IMG/VR virus record: IMGVR_UViG_3300020474_001671
Coordinates: 1 to 61,945 of that record
From: a virus
Direction: 5' to 3' (one strand)
DNA: 61,945 nucleotides
Shown: positions 2,343 to 12,718 of the stretch, in pieces
Layout of the letters: each line of letters begins with the position of its first letter
How positions within the stretch are numbered: position 1 is the first letter of the stretch
Notes under the pieces: model-generated
The model's input: the letters and a program-made list of their open reading frames with translations, nothing else
Database searches by the model: none
What the model was told of the DNA's origin: nothing
Program-made: the position numbers and the translations under genes

Positions 2343-3162
2343 GACTCTTTCTCAATGGTATCCAAAAGTAATCACTGAGTATCGTGAACCATTCATCGGT
2401 GGTGGATCTATTGCGATTGATGTGACCAAGGCAAATCCAGACATTCCTGTTTGGATCAATGATCTGTATGTGCCCCTTTACAACTTCTGGGTGCAATTGC
2501 GTGATCATGGACAAGACCTCTCTGAGAGTGTTAGAGAGCAAAAAGAGAAGATGCTTGAGAGTGGGACACAGGATGAGAAAGACCAGTTTGCCAAGAACTT
2601 GTTCAATCAATATGCCAATGAAATAGACACTTATGATGACTTTCAGAAAGCAGTTGCTTTCTTTATCATGAATAAGTGTAGTTATTCTGGTCTGACAGAG
2701 AACAGCACTTTTTCACGGACTGCTGCTAATTCTAACTTCTCTCTGGTTGGTGCAGACAAACTTGCACAATTTTCTGAACTAATTAAGAACTGGAAGATTA
2801 CTAATATTGATTACTCTGAGGTAATGAATGCTGAGGGATCTGATAATACTTTTGTGTTTCTTGATCCTCCTTATGATATCAAAGACTTTCTTTATGGTAA
2901 AGATCGTCAAATGCATAAGTCATTCGATCATGATAAGTTTGCTAATGATGTTTATAAGTGTCCTCACAAGTTCATGATCACTTATAATGTGAATGATAGA
3001 TTGCTTGAGTTGTATAAAGATTATCATCTTGAATATTGGAAACTGCGTTACTCCATGGTTCATCGTGGAGATAAGAATACCCAAGACAATGTAAAGACAG
3101 AACTTTTAGTTACTAACTATTCTCTTACACCAAAAACTCCGATTGAAGAACAATGGAACTGA
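2278..3162 (+). CDS. dam: DNA adenine N6-methyltransferase (Dam family)
   Basis: A D12-class methylase that would transfer a methyl group from SAM to adenine N6. The SAM-binding motif is RYPGGKSKAI (about residues 12-21), and the catalytic DPPY is in FVFLDPPYDI (about residue 197). At 294 residues it is similar in size to Dam-like enzymes (260-290). The ATG at 2278 is chosen over a GTG at 2272 since the family begins just before the LRYPGGK motif. It overlaps gp62 by 10 bases. Likely roles are protection from restriction or marking phage DNA; GATC specificity is inference. Confidence 0.88.
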   Translation: MKSLKSLKTPLRYPGGKSKAIKTLSQWYPKVITEYREPFIGGGSIAIDVTKANPDIPVWINDLYVPLYNFWVQLRDHGQDLSESVREQKEKMLESGTQDEKDQFAKNLFNQYANEIDTYDDFQKAVAFFIMNKCSYSGLTENSTFSRTAANSNFSLVGADKLAQFSELIKNWKITNIDYSEVMNAEGSDNTFVFLDPPYDIKDFLYGKDRQMHKSFDHDKFANDVYKCPHKFMITYNVNDRLLELYKDYHLEYWKLRYSMVHRGDKNTQDNVKTELLVTNYSLTPKTPIEEQWN

Positions 3163-3533
3163 AAGACTGGCTTAATTCTATCAATCAAACTAAGAAGCAT
3201 TTGATTGATGAAGATCCTTCACTCGAAAAAGAATATCCTCCTTATATTATCAATCGTTGTTTCTCTGGACATCTTGATACTTTGATGTTTGTCAATGAGA
3301 TGAATAAGTATAATTTCCTTCCTAAAAGGTTACAATACGACTTCCTTATAAATATTGTGAGGAAAAAGAAGAGATTTTCTCCCTGGCTCCGACAAGATAA
3401 GATCAAAGATCTAGATTATGTCAAACGTTATTATGGTTATAGTAATGAAAAGGCAAAACAGGCTTTGAAAATTCTAACAAAAGAACAACTTAATTTTATT
3501 AAATCAAAATTTGATACTGGAGGGAAAGGATGA
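3153..3533 (+). CDS. 62: Clamp-loader small subunit gp62
   Basis: A 126-residue protein matching the shortened cyanophage form of gp62: it starts MELKDWLNSI, has YPPYIINRCFSGHLD in the middle and ends in a helix (KAKQALKILTKEQL). It joins gp44 to load the gp45 clamp. T4 gp62 is longer (187 residues), so this is the compact form. The next gene, regA, overlaps by 4 bases (ATGA). Order gp62-regA is as in T4, but gp44 is not adjacent. Confidence 0.85.
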   Translation: MELKDWLNSINQTKKHLIDEDPSLEKEYPPYIINRCFSGHLDTLMFVNEMNKYNFLPKRLQYDFLINIVRKKKRFSPWLRQDKIKDLDYVKRYYGYSNEKAKQALKILTKEQLNFIKSKFDTGGKG

Positions 3534-3970
3534 GTGTTGTTAGAGAAGCTGAAGTGAGATGGACACCAGAACAAATGGTGGAAGTGGTTCTAGGAGAACC
3601 AGATGATTTTCTAAAAGTTCGTGAGACTTTGACTCGTATCGGAGTTGCGTCTAGAAAAGAAAAGAAAATCTATCAATCCTGTCACATTCTACACAAGCAA
3701 GGAAGATATTACCTTGTGCATTTTAAAGAACTATTTGCCCTTGATGGTAAACATGCAAATCTAACATTGAATGATGTTCAGAGACGTAATCGTATTGCAC
3801 AACTACTTGCCGACTGGGGTTTGATTAGTATTGTAGATGCCGATAAAATTCAAGACATCGCACCACTCAATCAGATTAAGGTTCTTGCATTTAGAGATAA
3901 GCAAGACTGGATCCTTGAGACCAAATACAATATTGGTTCGAAGAAGAAAAGGACAGAGGAAACCGAATAA
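3530..3970 (+). CDS. regA: RegA translational repressor
   Basis: The RegA core is clear: DDFLKVRETLTRIG, then YQSCHILHKQGRYYLVHFKE and LLADWGLI, closely following T4 RegA (122 residues). RegA binds ribosome-binding regions of early phage mRNAs and lowers their translation, including its own. At 146 residues this form carries about 20 extra N-terminal and some C-terminal residues. A TTCAACAC-type terminator follows directly and ends the clamp-loader operon. Confidence 0.93.
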   Translation: MSVVREAEVRWTPEQMVEVVLGEPDDFLKVRETLTRIGVASRKEKKIYQSCHILHKQGRYYLVHFKELFALDGKHANLTLNDVQRRNRIAQLLADWGLISIVDADKIQDIAPLNQIKVLAFRDKQDWILETKYNIGSKKKRTEETE

Positions 3971-3976
3971 AAATCT

Positions 3977-4001
3977 ACGGGGTTCAACACTCCGTTTTTT
4001 T
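3977..4001 (+). terminator. Intrinsic terminator after regA
   Basis: A 7-bp stem, ACGGGGT (3977-3983) with ACTCCGT (3989-3995), has one G-T pair and a 5-base loop and is followed by seven T. It ends the gp44-regA transcript. The loop region also forms a promoter -35 element (see next entry). Confidence 0.85.
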
Positions 4002-4018
4002 ATGCTATAATATAAATA
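3983..4018 (+). promoter_or_regulatory. Early promoter inside the terminator, with overlapping late promoter
   Basis: A -35-like TTCAAC (3983-3988) lies in the terminator loop, exactly 17 bp from TATAAT (4006-4011). A T4-type late promoter TATAAATA (4011-4018) begins on the last base of the -10 element. hsp20 could therefore be read both early, by host sigma70-type polymerase, and late, by gp55-type sigma. The -35 is only a partial match (TTCAAC against TTGACA). Confidence 0.65.
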
Positions 4019-4075
4019 ATGGTGGATGCCTTCGGGGTCCACACAATCAAATCTCGCTTTAAAAGGAGAAGCACA

Positions 4076-4501
4076 ATGATCAAGTTTAATGCTGCCAATT
4101 TGGATCAGCTGGTAGATAGCATAAATAAGAATAGCATCCATATGGATGAATATTTCGAAAGGTTGTTTAATCTCCACGAAACAACAAAGAATTATCCACC
4201 ATTTAATCTAGTCACAGTCAGTAAAGTAGAATCAAGACTAGAAATTGCACTTGCAGGATTTAGAAAGGCAGAAGTAAATGTCTACACACAAGACGGAAAA
4301 CTCTTTGTTGAAGGACAAAAAAAGGACACCGAAACAGATACAGAGTATGTCCACAGAGGAATGGCTCAACGATCTTTCACCAGATCTTGGACATTGGCAG
4401 AGGACACGGAAGTTAGATCAGTTGAATTTGAGGATGGGTTGTTGAGTATTGTTATGGGAAGAATTGTGCCCGAACATCATCAAAAGAAGGTATGGTTTTG
4501 A
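4076..4501 (+). CDS. hsp20: Small heat-shock protein Hsp20
   Basis: A 141-residue alpha-crystallin-type chaperone. The core beta-sandwich spans about residues 40-130, with the strand pattern LEIALAGFRKAEVNVYTQDGKLFVEGQ and the late motif EDGLLSIVM. Such proteins hold unfolding proteins in an ATP-independent way. The start at 4076 has AAAAGGAG 8 bases upstream; longer frames lack a ribosome site. Hsp20 is typical of marine T4-like cyanophages and lies here between regA and gp43 as expected. Confidence 0.92.
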   Translation: MIKFNAANLDQLVDSINKNSIHMDEYFERLFNLHETTKNYPPFNLVTVSKVESRLEIALAGFRKAEVNVYTQDGKLFVEGQKKDTETDTEYVHRGMAQRSFTRSWTLAEDTEVRSVEFEDGLLSIVMGRIVPEHHQKKVWF

Positions 4502-4527
4502 TATCCTGACTAATTTTTGCTGCGGTT

Positions 4528-4868: not shown

Positions 4869-5945
4869 ATGTACAAAAAGAAAAAAGTCCCTCAAGATCG
4901 AGAGTTTCCACTAGATCTCTTGGGAGTTGAAGGCACGGATGGACCTGAATATCCGTTATATGAATTTAAGGGGTTTGGATCTCGCCCGACCAATGAGATC
5001 AAGGCAACCACTGCAAATTACCCACGAAAAAGTGAGTTGGTTCAGAGTAAGTTAGAGATGCTAATTGCATCTACTGCCAACTTCATGTGGATGGTATTTG
5101 GTTGGCCGCTCAGTATTTTTGTTGATTCTGCTGGAAATGAATTTCAATTTGACCATCGACACCTTCTTCGAGCATTAATTGAGAACAAATGGATTCATGC
5201 TCCAGTCGCATTGTATGAACGTAAATCAACTGGCAATGAAGTTCTTGATCAATTGTCAGACAACAGTGCTATGTCTCTTATGGGACTTCGTGCTAATGCT
5301 ACAGACAATAGTGAGAATGCTGGAACTAAAGATTTTCATATTCTCCGACGATTAATGGAAGATGATGGTATTCCCATCACAAAGAAAAACGTAGATATTC
5401 TTCTTGATGCTGCTGGTATAAATGCTCGATACCCAAAGGGTGGACATAAAAGCACAATTGGTGCTATTCGTAATGCTATTCTTGAGACTAAAGTAAAATC
5501 ACTTCGTGTTTTTAATACTTCTAAGGAAGAAGTAAAAGCATGGATTGCAAATCAACCAAACTTTGCAAAGAACAAAGAAGCTGCTGATGGTGTGCTTTGC
5601 TACCACAAGGTTCTTGATGAAGGATTTTATTATCGATATGCTAACGATATCCTCCGATGGACTTGGAAAGCATTTGCCACAGGATCTAAGGTTCGTGTTT
5701 GTGCTTCCAGTTATGCAATCTGCGAACATCAGATTGAAGCAGAACGTGAAGAAATGGTTGATACTATCAAAGACATTCTTGATAACACTATCAACTGGTA
5801 CATTTCTTGGGTTGAAGAACGGTTTTCTAATGTTGGAATGAAGATTCACCTTCCAAAAGTTGAACTTGCAAAACTACCTTTGGAACTCTTTTGGATTCCT
5901 CAAATTGAAGGTGAGACTGAAGCAATTCGTGTTGATCTTAAGTAA
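4869..5945 (+). CDS. Conserved-type hypothetical protein, 358 residues
   Basis: A soluble protein of unknown function placed between hsp20 and the polymerase block, with its own early promoter and terminator. Around residues 80-115 the pattern WPLSIFVDSAGNEFQFDHRHLLRAL followed by APVALYE resembles the strand, D-x-R-H and helix layout of ParB/sulfiredoxin-like domains, suggesting possible nuclease or DNA-binding ancestry. That similarity is by eye and weak. The C-terminal half is mostly helical. Early expression suggests a role in replication or host takeover. Confidence 0.6.
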   Translation: MYKKKKVPQDREFPLDLLGVEGTDGPEYPLYEFKGFGSRPTNEIKATTANYPRKSELVQSKLEMLIASTANFMWMVFGWPLSIFVDSAGNEFQFDHRHLLRALIENKWIHAPVALYERKSTGNEVLDQLSDNSAMSLMGLRANATDNSENAGTKDFHILRRLMEDDGIPITKKNVDILLDAAGINARYPKGGHKSTIGAIRNAILETKVKSLRVFNTSKEEVKAWIANQPNFAKNKEAADGVLCYHKVLDEGFYYRYANDILRWTWKAFATGSKVRVCASSYAICEHQIEAEREEMVDTIKDILDNTINWYISWVEERFSNVGMKIHLPKVELAKLPLELFWIPQIEGETEAIRVDLK

Positions 5946-9164: not shown

Positions 9165-10181
9165 ATGGATTTTTTAAAAGATATTGTAAAGGAAATCGGA
9201 GATGACTTTACCAAACTCGCAAGAGACATTGACGAAACTGAAACATACGTTGACACTGGTTCGTTCATCTTTAATGCTCTTGTATCTGGGTCTATCCGTG
9301 GGGGTGTTTCTGGGAATAAAATCACTGCAATTGCTGGGGAAAGTTCTACTGGAAAGACTTTTTTCTCACTCGCAGTGGTCAAGAACTTCTTGGATACTAA
9401 TCCCGATGCATATTGCCTTTATTTTGATACTGAGGCAGCTATCACTAAGTCACTCTTAGAGAGTCGTGAAATCGACCTTAATCGTCTTGTCGTTGTTAAT
9501 GTAGTGACTATCGAAGAGTTCCGTAGTAAGGCACTCAGGGCAGTTGATATGTATCAGAAAAAACCTGAAGAAGAACGTAAACCTTGTATGTTTGTGTTAG
9601 ACTCTTTAGGTAATCTTTCAACTAATAAGGAGATTGAAGATACTCTGGCAGAAAAAAATACTAGAGATATGACAAAGGCACAATTAATCAAAGGTGCTTT
9701 TAGAATGTTGACTCTTAAAATGGGACAAGCAAAGATACCTTTCATTGTAACTAATCATGTTTACGACTCAATGTCTTTATATGAAGCAAAGAAAATGGGT
9801 GGAGGATCGGGATTATTTTATGCTTCTTCTTCAGTTATTTTTCTTTCGAAGTCAAAAGAAAAAGAGGGAACATCAGTTGTTGGAAACCTTATTAAGGCAA
9901 AAACTATCAAGTCACGTTTGAGTAAGGAAAACAAGGATGTAACTGTTCGTTTATTTTATGATCGTCGGGGACTTGATCGATATTATGGTTTACTTGAGTT
10001 AGGTGAACTTGCAGGAATGTGGAAGAATGTTGCCGGTCGTTATGAGATGACTGTCAATGGTGAGACTAAAAAAGTATATGCAAAGGCAATTCTAAAAGAT
10101 CCTGAAGTATATTTTACCGAAGAAGTAATGCAGCAACTTGATGCTGCCGCGAAGAAAGAATTCTCTTATGGAACGGATTGA
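9165..10181 (+). CDS. uvsX: RecA-like recombinase UvsX
   Basis: A 338-residue strand-exchange protein. Walker A is GESSTGKT (about residues 58-65); Walker B lies in PCMFVLDSLGNL (about 142-153). UvsX pairs homologous DNA for recombination-dependent replication and repair and needs UvsY and ssDNA-binding protein, which are not in this window. The ATG at 9165 (MDFLKDIV) is preferred to upstream alternatives because it begins the family N-terminal helix. Its end overlaps gp41 by 14 bases. Confidence 0.94.
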   Translation: MDFLKDIVKEIGDDFTKLARDIDETETYVDTGSFIFNALVSGSIRGGVSGNKITAIAGESSTGKTFFSLAVVKNFLDTNPDAYCLYFDTEAAITKSLLESREIDLNRLVVVNVVTIEEFRSKALRAVDMYQKKPEEERKPCMFVLDSLGNLSTNKEIEDTLAEKNTRDMTKAQLIKGAFRMLTLKMGQAKIPFIVTNHVYDSMSLYEAKKMGGGSGLFYASSSVIFLSKSKEKEGTSVVGNLIKAKTIKSRLSKENKDVTVRLFYDRRGLDRYYGLLELGELAGMWKNVAGRYEMTVNGETKKVYAKAILKDPEVYFTEEVMQQLDAAAKKEFSYGTD

Positions 10182-11544
10182 GACTACAATTCTCAGAAAT
10201 TTATTATGTAACGAAGATTATTCTCGTAAAGTCATTCCTTTTATAGAACCAACATATTTTGAGCAAAGAAGTGAAAAAGTAATCTTTGAAGAGATTACTA
10301 AGTTCATTGTAAATTATGGTTCTGCCATTACATCAGAAGCACTAAATATTGAGGTTGAGAATCGGACAGATCTAAACGAGAGTGAGATTAAAGAAACCAG
10401 AAACATCTGCAATTCGTTTACAGATTTTCCAGTAGATAAACAATGGTTGTTAGACACTACTGAAAATTGGTGTCGTGATCGTGCGATTTATCTTGCACTG
10501 ATGGAATCTATTCATATTGCGGATGGAAACGATGAGAAGAAAAGTAGGGATGCTATTCCTTCTATTCTTTCTGATGCACTGGCAGTTTCTTTTGATAACA
10601 ACATTGGACATGACTACTTAGAAAATTACGAAGAAAGGTATGAGTATTATCACAGGAAGGAAGAAAAAGTTCCATTTGATTTGGAATATTTTGACAAAAT
10701 TTCGGACGGGGGCATATCTAATAAAACTCTTACTATCGCGCTTGCTGGTACTGGTGTCGGCAAGTCTTTATTCATGTGCAATTTTGCTAGCTCCGTGTTG
10801 CTCCAAGGGAAAAACGTTCTCTACATTACAATGGAGATGGCAGAAGAGAAAATTGCTGAACGAATTGATGCGAATTTATTAGATGTTTCCATTAAGAGTA
10901 TTAAAGATCTGCCTAAGTCAACGTTTGAAAATAAAATATCCAAGTTAGCAGCAAAAACACAGGGAACACTTATAATTAAAGAATACCCTACTTCATCTGC
11001 ACATAGTGGACATTTTAAAGCATTGCTTAGTGAACTTGCACTTAAGAAGTCATTTAGACCTGATATTATTTTCGTTGATTACCTTAATATATGTGCTTCC
11101 ACAAAGTATAAGCAGGGTGGTTCTATTAATTCATATTCATATATTAAATCTATTGCAGAGGAGCTTAGAGGGTTGGCTTGCGAAGCCAAGGTCCCTATCG
11201 TATCTGCCACCCAGACCACTCGTTCTGGTTTTGGTAGCTCTGACGTTGACCTTACTGACACTTCTGAGTCCTTTGGTCTCCCTGCTACTGCTGATCTTAT
11301 GTTTGCCCTTATTAGCACTGAGGAACTTGAACAGATTGGACAGATAATGGTGAAGCAATTGAAGAACAGATACAATGATACTGTAGTCAATAAGAGATTT
11401 GTTGTTGGAATTGATCGTGCCAAGATGCGTATCTATGATTGTGAACAGTCGGCACAAGATAATATACTTGACTCTGGACAAGAAGAAGAGTATAATAACG
11501 AGGATAGACCGAAGAAATCATTTGAGGGATTTAAATTTTCATGA
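10168..11544 (+). CDS. 41: Replicative helicase gp41 (DnaB family)
   Basis: A 458-residue helicase that would unwind DNA ahead of the fork and act with primase gp61. An N-terminal helical domain (about 1-150) is followed by a RecA-like ATPase: Walker A AGTGVGKS (about 193-200), catalytic Glu in ITMEMAEEKI, Walker B in PDIIFVDYLNI, the H4 loop Gln in SATQTTRSG and an arginine-finger region KNRYNDTV near the end. The start at 10168 gives the usual N-terminus (MERIETTILRNLL). The next gene overlaps by 4 bases and is a partial copy of its ATPase domain. Confidence 0.95.
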   Translation: MERIETTILRNLLCNEDYSRKVIPFIEPTYFEQRSEKVIFEEITKFIVNYGSAITSEALNIEVENRTDLNESEIKETRNICNSFTDFPVDKQWLLDTTENWCRDRAIYLALMESIHIADGNDEKKSRDAIPSILSDALAVSFDNNIGHDYLENYEERYEYYHRKEEKVPFDLEYFDKISDGGISNKTLTIALAGTGVGKSLFMCNFASSVLLQGKNVLYITMEMAEEKIAERIDANLLDVSIKSIKDLPKSTFENKISKLAAKTQGTLIIKEYPTSSAHSGHFKALLSELALKKSFRPDIIFVDYLNICASTKYKQGGSINSYSYIKSIAEELRGLACEAKVPIVSATQTTRSGFGSSDVDLTDTSESFGLPATADLMFALISTEELEQIGQIMVKQLKNRYNDTVVNKRFVVGIDRAKMRIYDCEQSAQDNILDSGQEEEYNNEDRPKKSFEGFKFS

Positions 11545-12314
11545 GGAAATTCGATTTGTTTAAATTTCGTAATTATAAAGAAACCCCAATTAGTTTTGAA
11601 GTTGACGTATTAGACAAAATTACAGATGGTGGTTTGCATGATAGATCCGTAAACTATCTTTTTTCAAGTACTGGTGCTGGAAAGACTTTGTTCCTGTGTC
11701 ATGTTGCAGCTTCTGCTATGAGACAGAATAAAAATGTTCTTTTCATTACTGATGAATTACCTCAAGAGAAAATTCATGAAAGGATTCAAGCAAATCTTTT
11801 AAATGATACTATTTTAAATTTATATGATAAAGAAACATCTTTTTACGATAGTTTAAATCTACAATCTCTAAACACTCTTGGCAATCTTAGAGTTATTGAC
11901 GACTATTATAATTACTCATCTTTTGCAGAATTTAGGAGTCAATTTGAACATGATATAAAAAATATCTTATTTAAACCTGATATTATCCTTATTGATGTGT
12001 TTAGTAATTCTAATGATTTAGAAAGTGATTATATGTATCATAAAACTTGTATAGATTATAAAATACCTATTTTAGTTTCTGCAGTGACACCGAGGAAAAA
12101 TCCAGTAGAGTCGATCATAAGAACGATGAGTGTTGAGTCTGGTGCGTTAATGAGCTTTGGTATTGAAATTACAGATAAAACTACATCTTCTTATACAGTG
12201 ACACAAGTAAAAAATAGATATACCCGCCCCGATAAAAATCGAAGATTTACAATCGGCGTTGACTATGATAAAATGAAACTATACAATGCAGAACAATCTA
12301 AATTAGAATTATGA
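11541..12314 (+). CDS. Truncated gp41-like helicase paralogue
   Basis: A 257-residue protein aligned by eye to the ATPase half of gp41 directly upstream, without its N-terminal domain. Shared blocks in order: FEVDVLDKITDGGLHDRS, Walker A SSTGAGKT (42-49), NVLFITDELPQEKIHERIQANLL, KPDIILIDVFSN, and the end KNRYTRPDKNRRFTIGVDYDKMKLYN. Walker A lysine, the DE pair and the arginine-finger region are kept. The H4 loop SATQTTRSG has become SAVTPRKNP, and the long DNA-loop region is shortened. It may bind ATP and join gp41 rings without translocating; this is inference. It is translationally coupled to gp41 by ATGA. Confidence 0.82.
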   Translation: MRKFDLFKFRNYKETPISFEVDVLDKITDGGLHDRSVNYLFSSTGAGKTLFLCHVAASAMRQNKNVLFITDELPQEKIHERIQANLLNDTILNLYDKETSFYDSLNLQSLNTLGNLRVIDDYYNYSSFAEFRSQFEHDIKNILFKPDIILIDVFSNSNDLESDYMYHKTCIDYKIPILVSAVTPRKNPVESIIRTMSVESGALMSFGIEITDKTTSSYTVTQVKNRYTRPDKNRRFTIGVDYDKMKLYNAEQSKLEL

Positions 12315-12718
12315 GTAAAGTAAACACTGATGCCTATCTTGAGTTTGTGAATGCCGTCACATCTCAACCCAGTCAAGATGCCGATGCCTTTGAGTATCGT
12401 ATTCAAGAACTTCGTGGAGAAGGATTTGAAACACATCGACTTCTCACTGCCTCTGTTGGTATGTGTGCCGAAGCAGGTGAGTTTACTGAAGTTGTAAAGA
12501 AGATTATCTTTCAGGGTAAACCAGTCACCGAAGAGAACTTGTTTCATCTCAAACGTGAACTTGGAGATATTATGTGGTATGTGGCACAGGCATGTATGGG
12601 ACTCAATATTTCTCTTGATGATATCATTGAGATGAATGTTGATAAACTCAAGTCACGATATCCTGGTGGTGAGTTTGATGTCCATTATTCTGAAAACCGT
12701 GTTGAGGGAGACTTGTAA
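12311..12718 (+). CDS. mazG: MazG-type nucleotide pyrophosphohydrolase
   Basis: A 135-residue all-helical NTP pyrophosphatase. The metal-binding pattern is E54-x-x-E57 (AEAGEF) and E83-x-x-D86 (RELGDI). Such enzymes remove pyrophosphate from dNTPs or NTPs; cyanophage MazG has been proposed to affect ppGpp or the host GC nucleotide pool. It overlaps the helicase paralogue by 4 bases and the next gene by one base. Confidence 0.9.
   Translation: MSKVNTDAYLEFVNAVTSQPSQDADAFEYRIQELRGEGFETHRLLTASVGMCAEAGEFTEVVKKIIFQGKPVTEENLFHLKRELGDIMWYVAQACMGLNISLDDIIEMNVDKLKSRYPGGEFDVHYSENRVEGDL

Follow-up and report, generated by a model that had tools for sequence, protein, structure and literature searches.

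A truncated gp41-derived ATPase paralog between gp41 and mazG of T4-like cyanophages, a possible accessory subunit of the replicative helicase

Judging from its sequence, the window (the whole stretch of 61,945 nucleotides analyzed here) represents part of the genome of a T4-like cyanophage. Its closest isolate is Synechococcus phage S-SKS1, to which 70% of the window's first 25 kb aligns at 88% DNA identity. The genes run in the order gp43, uvsX, gp41, PARA, mazG, where PARA is the name we use for the open reading frame at 11541 to 12314, a gp41-derived RecA-fold ATPase paralog of 257 amino acids. The upstream gene, gp41 (10168 to 11544), encodes an intact DnaB-like replicative helicase (PHROG_19, E = 7e-131; PDB T4 gp41, E = 3e-96), the start of which is best placed at the ATG at 10168. 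As the original prediction had it, PARA is coupled to gp41 by an ATGA (11541 to 11544) in which its ATG start overlaps the gp41 stop; a second ATGA joins the end of PARA to the start of mazG at 12311, so that the coupling is the same at both ends. The mazG gene (12311 to 12718; PF03819) encodes a pyrophosphohydrolase and is the right-hand neighbor in all nine contigs in which that side is present. These three genes and all of the features within PARA described below lie on the plus strand. There is also a sigma-70-like promoter match at 11468 to 11496 (TTGACT-17-TATAAT, 11 of 12 positions), 45 bp upstream of PARA and still within the 3' end of gp41, in a region where promoter-like matches occur at about twice the shuffle expectation.

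By BLASTP, PARA matches the gp41 of the window (31% identity, 53% similarity, E = 4e-36) collinearly with gp41 residues 163 to 427, and the gp41 family profile PHROG_19 recovers it with an E value of 2.5e-23, which bears out the claim that a truncated copy of the gp41 ATPase domain lies directly behind gp41. The Pfam DnaB_C score is 25.0 bits, below the gathering score of 27; KaiC is slightly above its cutoff. No Pfam or PHROG profile outside the gp41/DnaB/KaiC/RecA superfamily matched, so the family assignment withstood the profile search that might have moved it elsewhere, and no homing nuclease domain (GIY-YIG, HNH, or LAGLIDADG) was among these matches. An AF2 model from an alignment of 60 sequences (pLDDT 83.3, pTM 0.84), used instead of one from a shallow alignment that gave a pLDDT of 54, predicts a complete gp41-like RecA domain. 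The top PDB matches of this model are the T4 gp41 structures 8dtp and 8gao (Z of 27; for 8dtp, Z = 27.1 and rmsd = 2.7 Å over 250 residues), and no unrelated fold is among the structure-search matches listed, although absence from such lists is no evidence. The structural alignment begins at T4 gp41 residue 150, in the linking-helix region, in keeping with the proposed lack of an N-terminal domain: the hairpin tier is absent, the open reading frame begins at the linking-helix end, and only gp41 lies upstream. In gp41, this N-terminal tier is the primase-binding part. About the first 20 residues of PARA match the gp41 linking-helix region, and the segment that corresponds to the end of this helix (MRKFDLFKFRNYKETPISFEV; 11541 to 11603) is highly conserved across alleles.

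Residues kept and lost were assessed over 82 columns that are at least 95% conserved in 55 gp41 domains, in an alignment of 60 sequences with five distinct PARA alleles. All five alleles retain the Walker A lysine K48, E72 (11754 to 11756; the counterpart of the gp41 catalytic glutamate, T4 E227), the Walker B aspartate D152 (11994 to 11996), and K224 and R226 of the KNRY motif (residues 224 to 227; 12210 to 12221) that corresponds to the gp41 K/R finger. In gp41, this finger reaches the ATP site of the neighboring protomer. The ATP site as a whole, including the P-loop (SSTGAGKT, residues 42 to 49; 11664 to 11687), is intact in four alleles; in the fifth, from contig L009, the motif has degenerated to LNTGDKKN with loss of the glycine and threonine at positions 47 and 49, and the finger is retained. 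ATP binding by PARA is therefore neither universal nor strictly required.

The region from residue 153 to 203 (11997 to 12149), which takes in the former L1 loop and helix, H4, and the L2 DNA loop, is hypervariable and about 27 residues shorter than in gp41. Across L1, H4, and L2, just 3 of 30 gp41-conserved columns survive in all five alleles, 27 are lost in at least one, and 22 are lost in every one. The H4 glutamine (Q348) has become V, V, N, R, or S, and most L1 and L2 positions are altered or deleted, as expected from the earlier reading that both this glutamine and the long DNA-loop region had gone. These are the same elements through which T4 gp41 contacts ssDNA (N327 to Y329, A372 to A375, and K358) in a study that also used the E227Q mutant (PMC10359460). 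Compared with the T4 gp41/DnaB helicases, then, PARA shares the RecA-type C-terminal domain with its ATP-site and finger residues and the end of the linking helix; it differs in lacking the N-terminal tier, the H4 glutamine, and recognizable L1 and L2 loops and in being encoded by an additional gene next to a complete gp41. Because the ATP-site and finger residues are kept and the DNA-contact residues lost, it is plausible that PARA could join or cap the gp41 ring; conservation of the interface residues could partly reflect conservation of the fold core.

Besides the window, ten IMG/VR contigs carry PARA, which other contigs encode at 69 to 100% identity and with no stops. Nine of the ten have a complete copy. 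In every one of them mazG comes next, and the gene before PARA is gp41, except that in L007 an 81-amino-acid open reading frame stands between gp41 and PARA. The tenth (L022; contig 3300017769_001657) ends 47 bases into the start of an L009-type PARA (4903 to 4949; MKNKFDLFEF), behind an S-SKS1-like gp41. No relative above 36% identity, i.e., nothing except gp41 itself, was found among 50,697 records of isolated phages, and a pattern scan of prokaryote genomes returned none. S-SKS1 provides a natural empty site, in which a gp41 that is 92% identical to that of the window is ATGA-coupled straight to mazG. A tblastn search detected no PARA remnants at close gp41 loci without PARA among the matches listed, and no second RecA copy lay next to 80 diverse T4-like gp41 genes; the list of closest gp41 loci consists of the best 80 listed, from which known carriers are missing, and it hence yields no prevalence figure. 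In relatives, the gp41-mazG junction is occupied by genes of other kinds, unrelated to PARA (2OG-Fe(II) oxygenases, methyltransferases, a GIY-YIG endonuclease in L085, and small open reading frames), which marks it as an exchange slot in cyanophages. PARA looks like a dispensable, optional add-on. The original prediction had staked itself on conservation in related phages and on the absence of accumulated stop codons there; the first part did not hold, as most relatives lack PARA, and the second did, as every complete copy is open and neutral decay is excluded (see below).

A protein of this build might not act on gp41 at all and could instead be a stand-alone RecA-core ATPase that forms its own small ring or works on another nucleic acid or protein target. 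RecA-core-only DnaB-like phage proteins exist: mycobacteriophage D29 gp65 has been reported to be an exonuclease, and the core of Wildcat gp80 is sufficient for DNA unwinding (PMC4523182). Like these proteins, PARA consists of one RecA core and lacks the N-terminal domain of DnaB, and the mostly intact ATP site would suit such a role. However, they come from unrelated phages, whereas PARA stands in tandem with a full helicase, has lost the DNA-contact motifs, and falls within or close to the cyanophage gp41 family, closest to PHROG_19, in a tree built without gp65 sequences. PARA also has no nuclease match, its P-loop-degenerate allele is maintained in L009, and it always adjoins gp41 or sits one small open reading frame away. 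We therefore regard a function independent of gp41 as unlikely.

Between the window and L003, PARA DNA is 96% identical and the gp41 genes are 72% alike, with dS values of about 1.5 for gp41, 0.03 for PARA, and 0.48 for mazG; the near-identical tract starts some 50 bp ahead of the gp41 stop and reaches about 120 bp into mazG. In L004 and L006, PARA DNA is identical and the gp41 flanks are about 90% alike. The GC content of PARA is 0.30, versus 0.37 and 0.41 for the neighboring genes, and the gp41 genes beside which PARA occurs diverge at about 27% of their residues, with no tight allele matching seen. These comparisons indicate that PARA has moved between diverged phages. A likely vehicle would be co-conversion, set off by the homing elements present in the uvsX and gp41 of carriers.

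All complete copies of PARA keep an open frame of about 250 codons, and every indel among the alleles preserves the frame. In neutral simulations on the allele tree, all five frames stayed open in 0 of 2,000 runs, 5 to 6 stops being expected on each of the three long branches. A pseudogene or chance open reading frame was considered separately and is ruled out by conservation and by this simulation. Codon models, which we prefer to NG86 estimates near 1 that ignore the AT-rich codon bias, give an ω of 0.56 for PARA versus 0.11 for both mazG and the last 100 codons of gp41, so that, in this small sample of five distinct alleles, PARA is about five times less constrained than its neighbors. Nevertheless, ω = 1 is rejected (2ΔlnL = 9.8), and between one half and two thirds of sites are under tight constraint (ω of 0.03 to 0.08). 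By region, pN is 0.05 to 0.11 in residues 1 to 120 and 204 to 257 and 0.26 to 0.53 in residues 153 to 203. A model with a class of sites at ω >1 is strongly favored (M2a versus M1a, 2ΔlnL = 97, or 27.5 once residues 140 to 205 are removed), and these sites are mainly at 142 to 194, with isolated ones at 15, 220, and 229. Residues 179 to 203 combine high synonymous change with gaps, and misalignment or recombination inflates the ω signal in this stretch. PARA evolves fast in the former DNA loops, and diversifying selection there is likely from these models.

This pattern invites the view that PARA is a conflict gene working by some route other than ring tuning, serving either as a decoy that absorbs a host defense or rival phage factor attacking gp41 or as a poison subunit aimed only at the helicases of competitors. 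Its dispensability, as seen in S-SKS1, its mobility and low GC content, and the site classes with ω well above 1 all fit. So does the comparison of the window with L003, in which 22 codons differ and 20 of these differences are nonsynonymous. On the other side, any attacker of gp41 is hypothetical, comparison of PARA with defense proteins gave weak ATPase matches and nothing further, and the strongest ω signal lies in the gap-rich stretch where it is inflated. We think this somewhat less probable again than a stand-alone ATPase. Elevated ω, the lost P-loop of L009, and a slot that is, like the adjoining uvsX and gp41, full of homing elements could also be taken to mean that PARA is a passenger with little or no function, moved by homing and recombination at the gp41-mazG junction and now being lost. 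The five open frames, the strongly constrained sites, and the retained ATP-site and finger residues make this quite improbable.

The proposal that PARA replaces the T4 loader gp59 did not survive. The gp59 family (PF08993) is present in S-SKS1, P-SSM2, S-CAM9, S-SRM01, P-HM2, syn9, and Melnitz, that is, in S-SKS1 (with both domains, including the C-terminal domain) and in six of the seven other marine phages tested. It follows that PARA is not needed in gp59's place, the PARA carriers themselves being known as fragments. Although PARA lies directly behind gp41, which it could touch, and although some loaders are helicase-associated ATPases (DnaC and DnaI, which are AAA+ rather than RecA type), we reject replacement as highly improbable because gp59 is an unrelated family that is separately present in the clade, a Pfam scan of PARA gave no match to PF08993 or PF08994, S-SKS1 uses its closely similar gp41 at an empty site, and PARA is too patchy and fast evolving for an essential step.

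The reading that we favor, at a probability of roughly 0.4, is that PARA is an expressed, optional accessory subunit derived from gp41 that docks on gp41-type rings but has no grip on DNA. That it is expressed we infer from the retention of its frame; docking and its effect are suggested by the residues kept and lost. The single RecA-type domain with its ATP pocket, K/R finger, and linking-helix segment preserves the parts by which gp41 protomers hold each other, while the N-terminal tier for primase binding has been shed, as have the L1, L2, and H4 elements that grip DNA. PARA would then dock as a blind protomer on or into a gp41-type ring, where its finger may complete or block an ATP site, and ring assembly, closure, or speed would be altered with no pulling of DNA by PARA itself. 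Since PARA is dispensable, mobile, and fastest changing in the former channel loops, the benefit is probably conditional rather than housekeeping, a distribution that also argues against an essential loader, and it might consist of tuning the helicase of the carrier phage or of disturbing gp41 function in co-infecting relatives. Against docking stand the loss of the P-loop in L009, the loose pairing with gp41 alleles, and the lack of any consistent change in PARA-adjacent gp41. A bolder version, which we hold to be quite improbable, would make PARA a mobile helicase-subunit mimic in phage-phage competition. It would use the conserved protomer interface to enter gp41-type rings and, being unable to grip DNA, would stall or retune them, its own phage being tolerant and rivals not.

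RecA-fold paralogs that modify the assembly of their parent are known in eukaryotes, where RAD51 paralogs cap RAD51 filaments. The RAD51 paralog complexes BCDX2 and DX2-CX3, which were found in the fold search with PARA, are alike in concept, as paralogs that join and alter a parent assembly; they differ in serving eukaryotic recombination and in acting on filaments rather than hexameric helicases, and the likeness is one of analogy only. Our literature search found no description of a tandem, DNA-blind, horizontally moving gp41 paralog. If PARA does join the gp41 ring, it would give a hetero-hexameric phage replicative helicase, with a one-gene natural comparison between S-SKS1 (without PARA) and the window phage (with it). 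PARA would be a direct test case for the effect of one DNA-blind subunit on a ring helicase, and it bears on the question of whether replication-protein mimics serve phages as weapons or as tuners.

As to origin, trees place PARA on a very long branch in or adjoining the cyanophage gp41 clade, with a placement that shifts with sampling. The data are compatible with PARA being sister to its own gp41 lineage (p-AU = 0.55), and recent tandem duplication of the adjoining gp41 is neither shown nor excluded. Within gp41 itself, the window (10741 to 11424) and L008 have in common several clustered changes in the RecA domain (residues 240 to 245 and 302 to 319) that are absent from sister gp41 genes, and they form a long branch beside S-SKS1. 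Coevolution of gp41 with PARA was considered as an explanation and set aside, as the extra changes at 240 to 245 are common to the window and L008 but not to the PARA-carrying L022.

Several homing elements were seen at these loci. In L009 (1 to 1873), gp41 is split right after H4 by a gp41-1-type split intein, the N-terminal half of which is nearly identical to PDB entries 6qaz and 6riz, and a GIY-YIG-like open reading frame with no Pfam match (518 to 1183) lies between the gp41 halves; the same phage carries PARA. The gp41-1 split intein, which is in wide use, comes naturally from the gene neighborhood of the gp41-mazG junction. In L006 (540 to 1664), an intein sits exactly in the gp41 Walker A motif (LAG|C...HN|TGVGKS), with a minus-strand HNH-like open reading frame (586 to 1254) between the halves. 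In L003 (2200 to 4517), uvsX has a split intein that encloses an HNH-like open reading frame (2524 to 3195), followed by a second homing-endonuclease-like open reading frame (3645 to 4517). The GIY-YIG endonuclease open reading frame in the gp41-mazG slot of L085 (4377 to 5096) ends in a near copy of the gp41 C terminus, as if homing into the 3' end of gp41.
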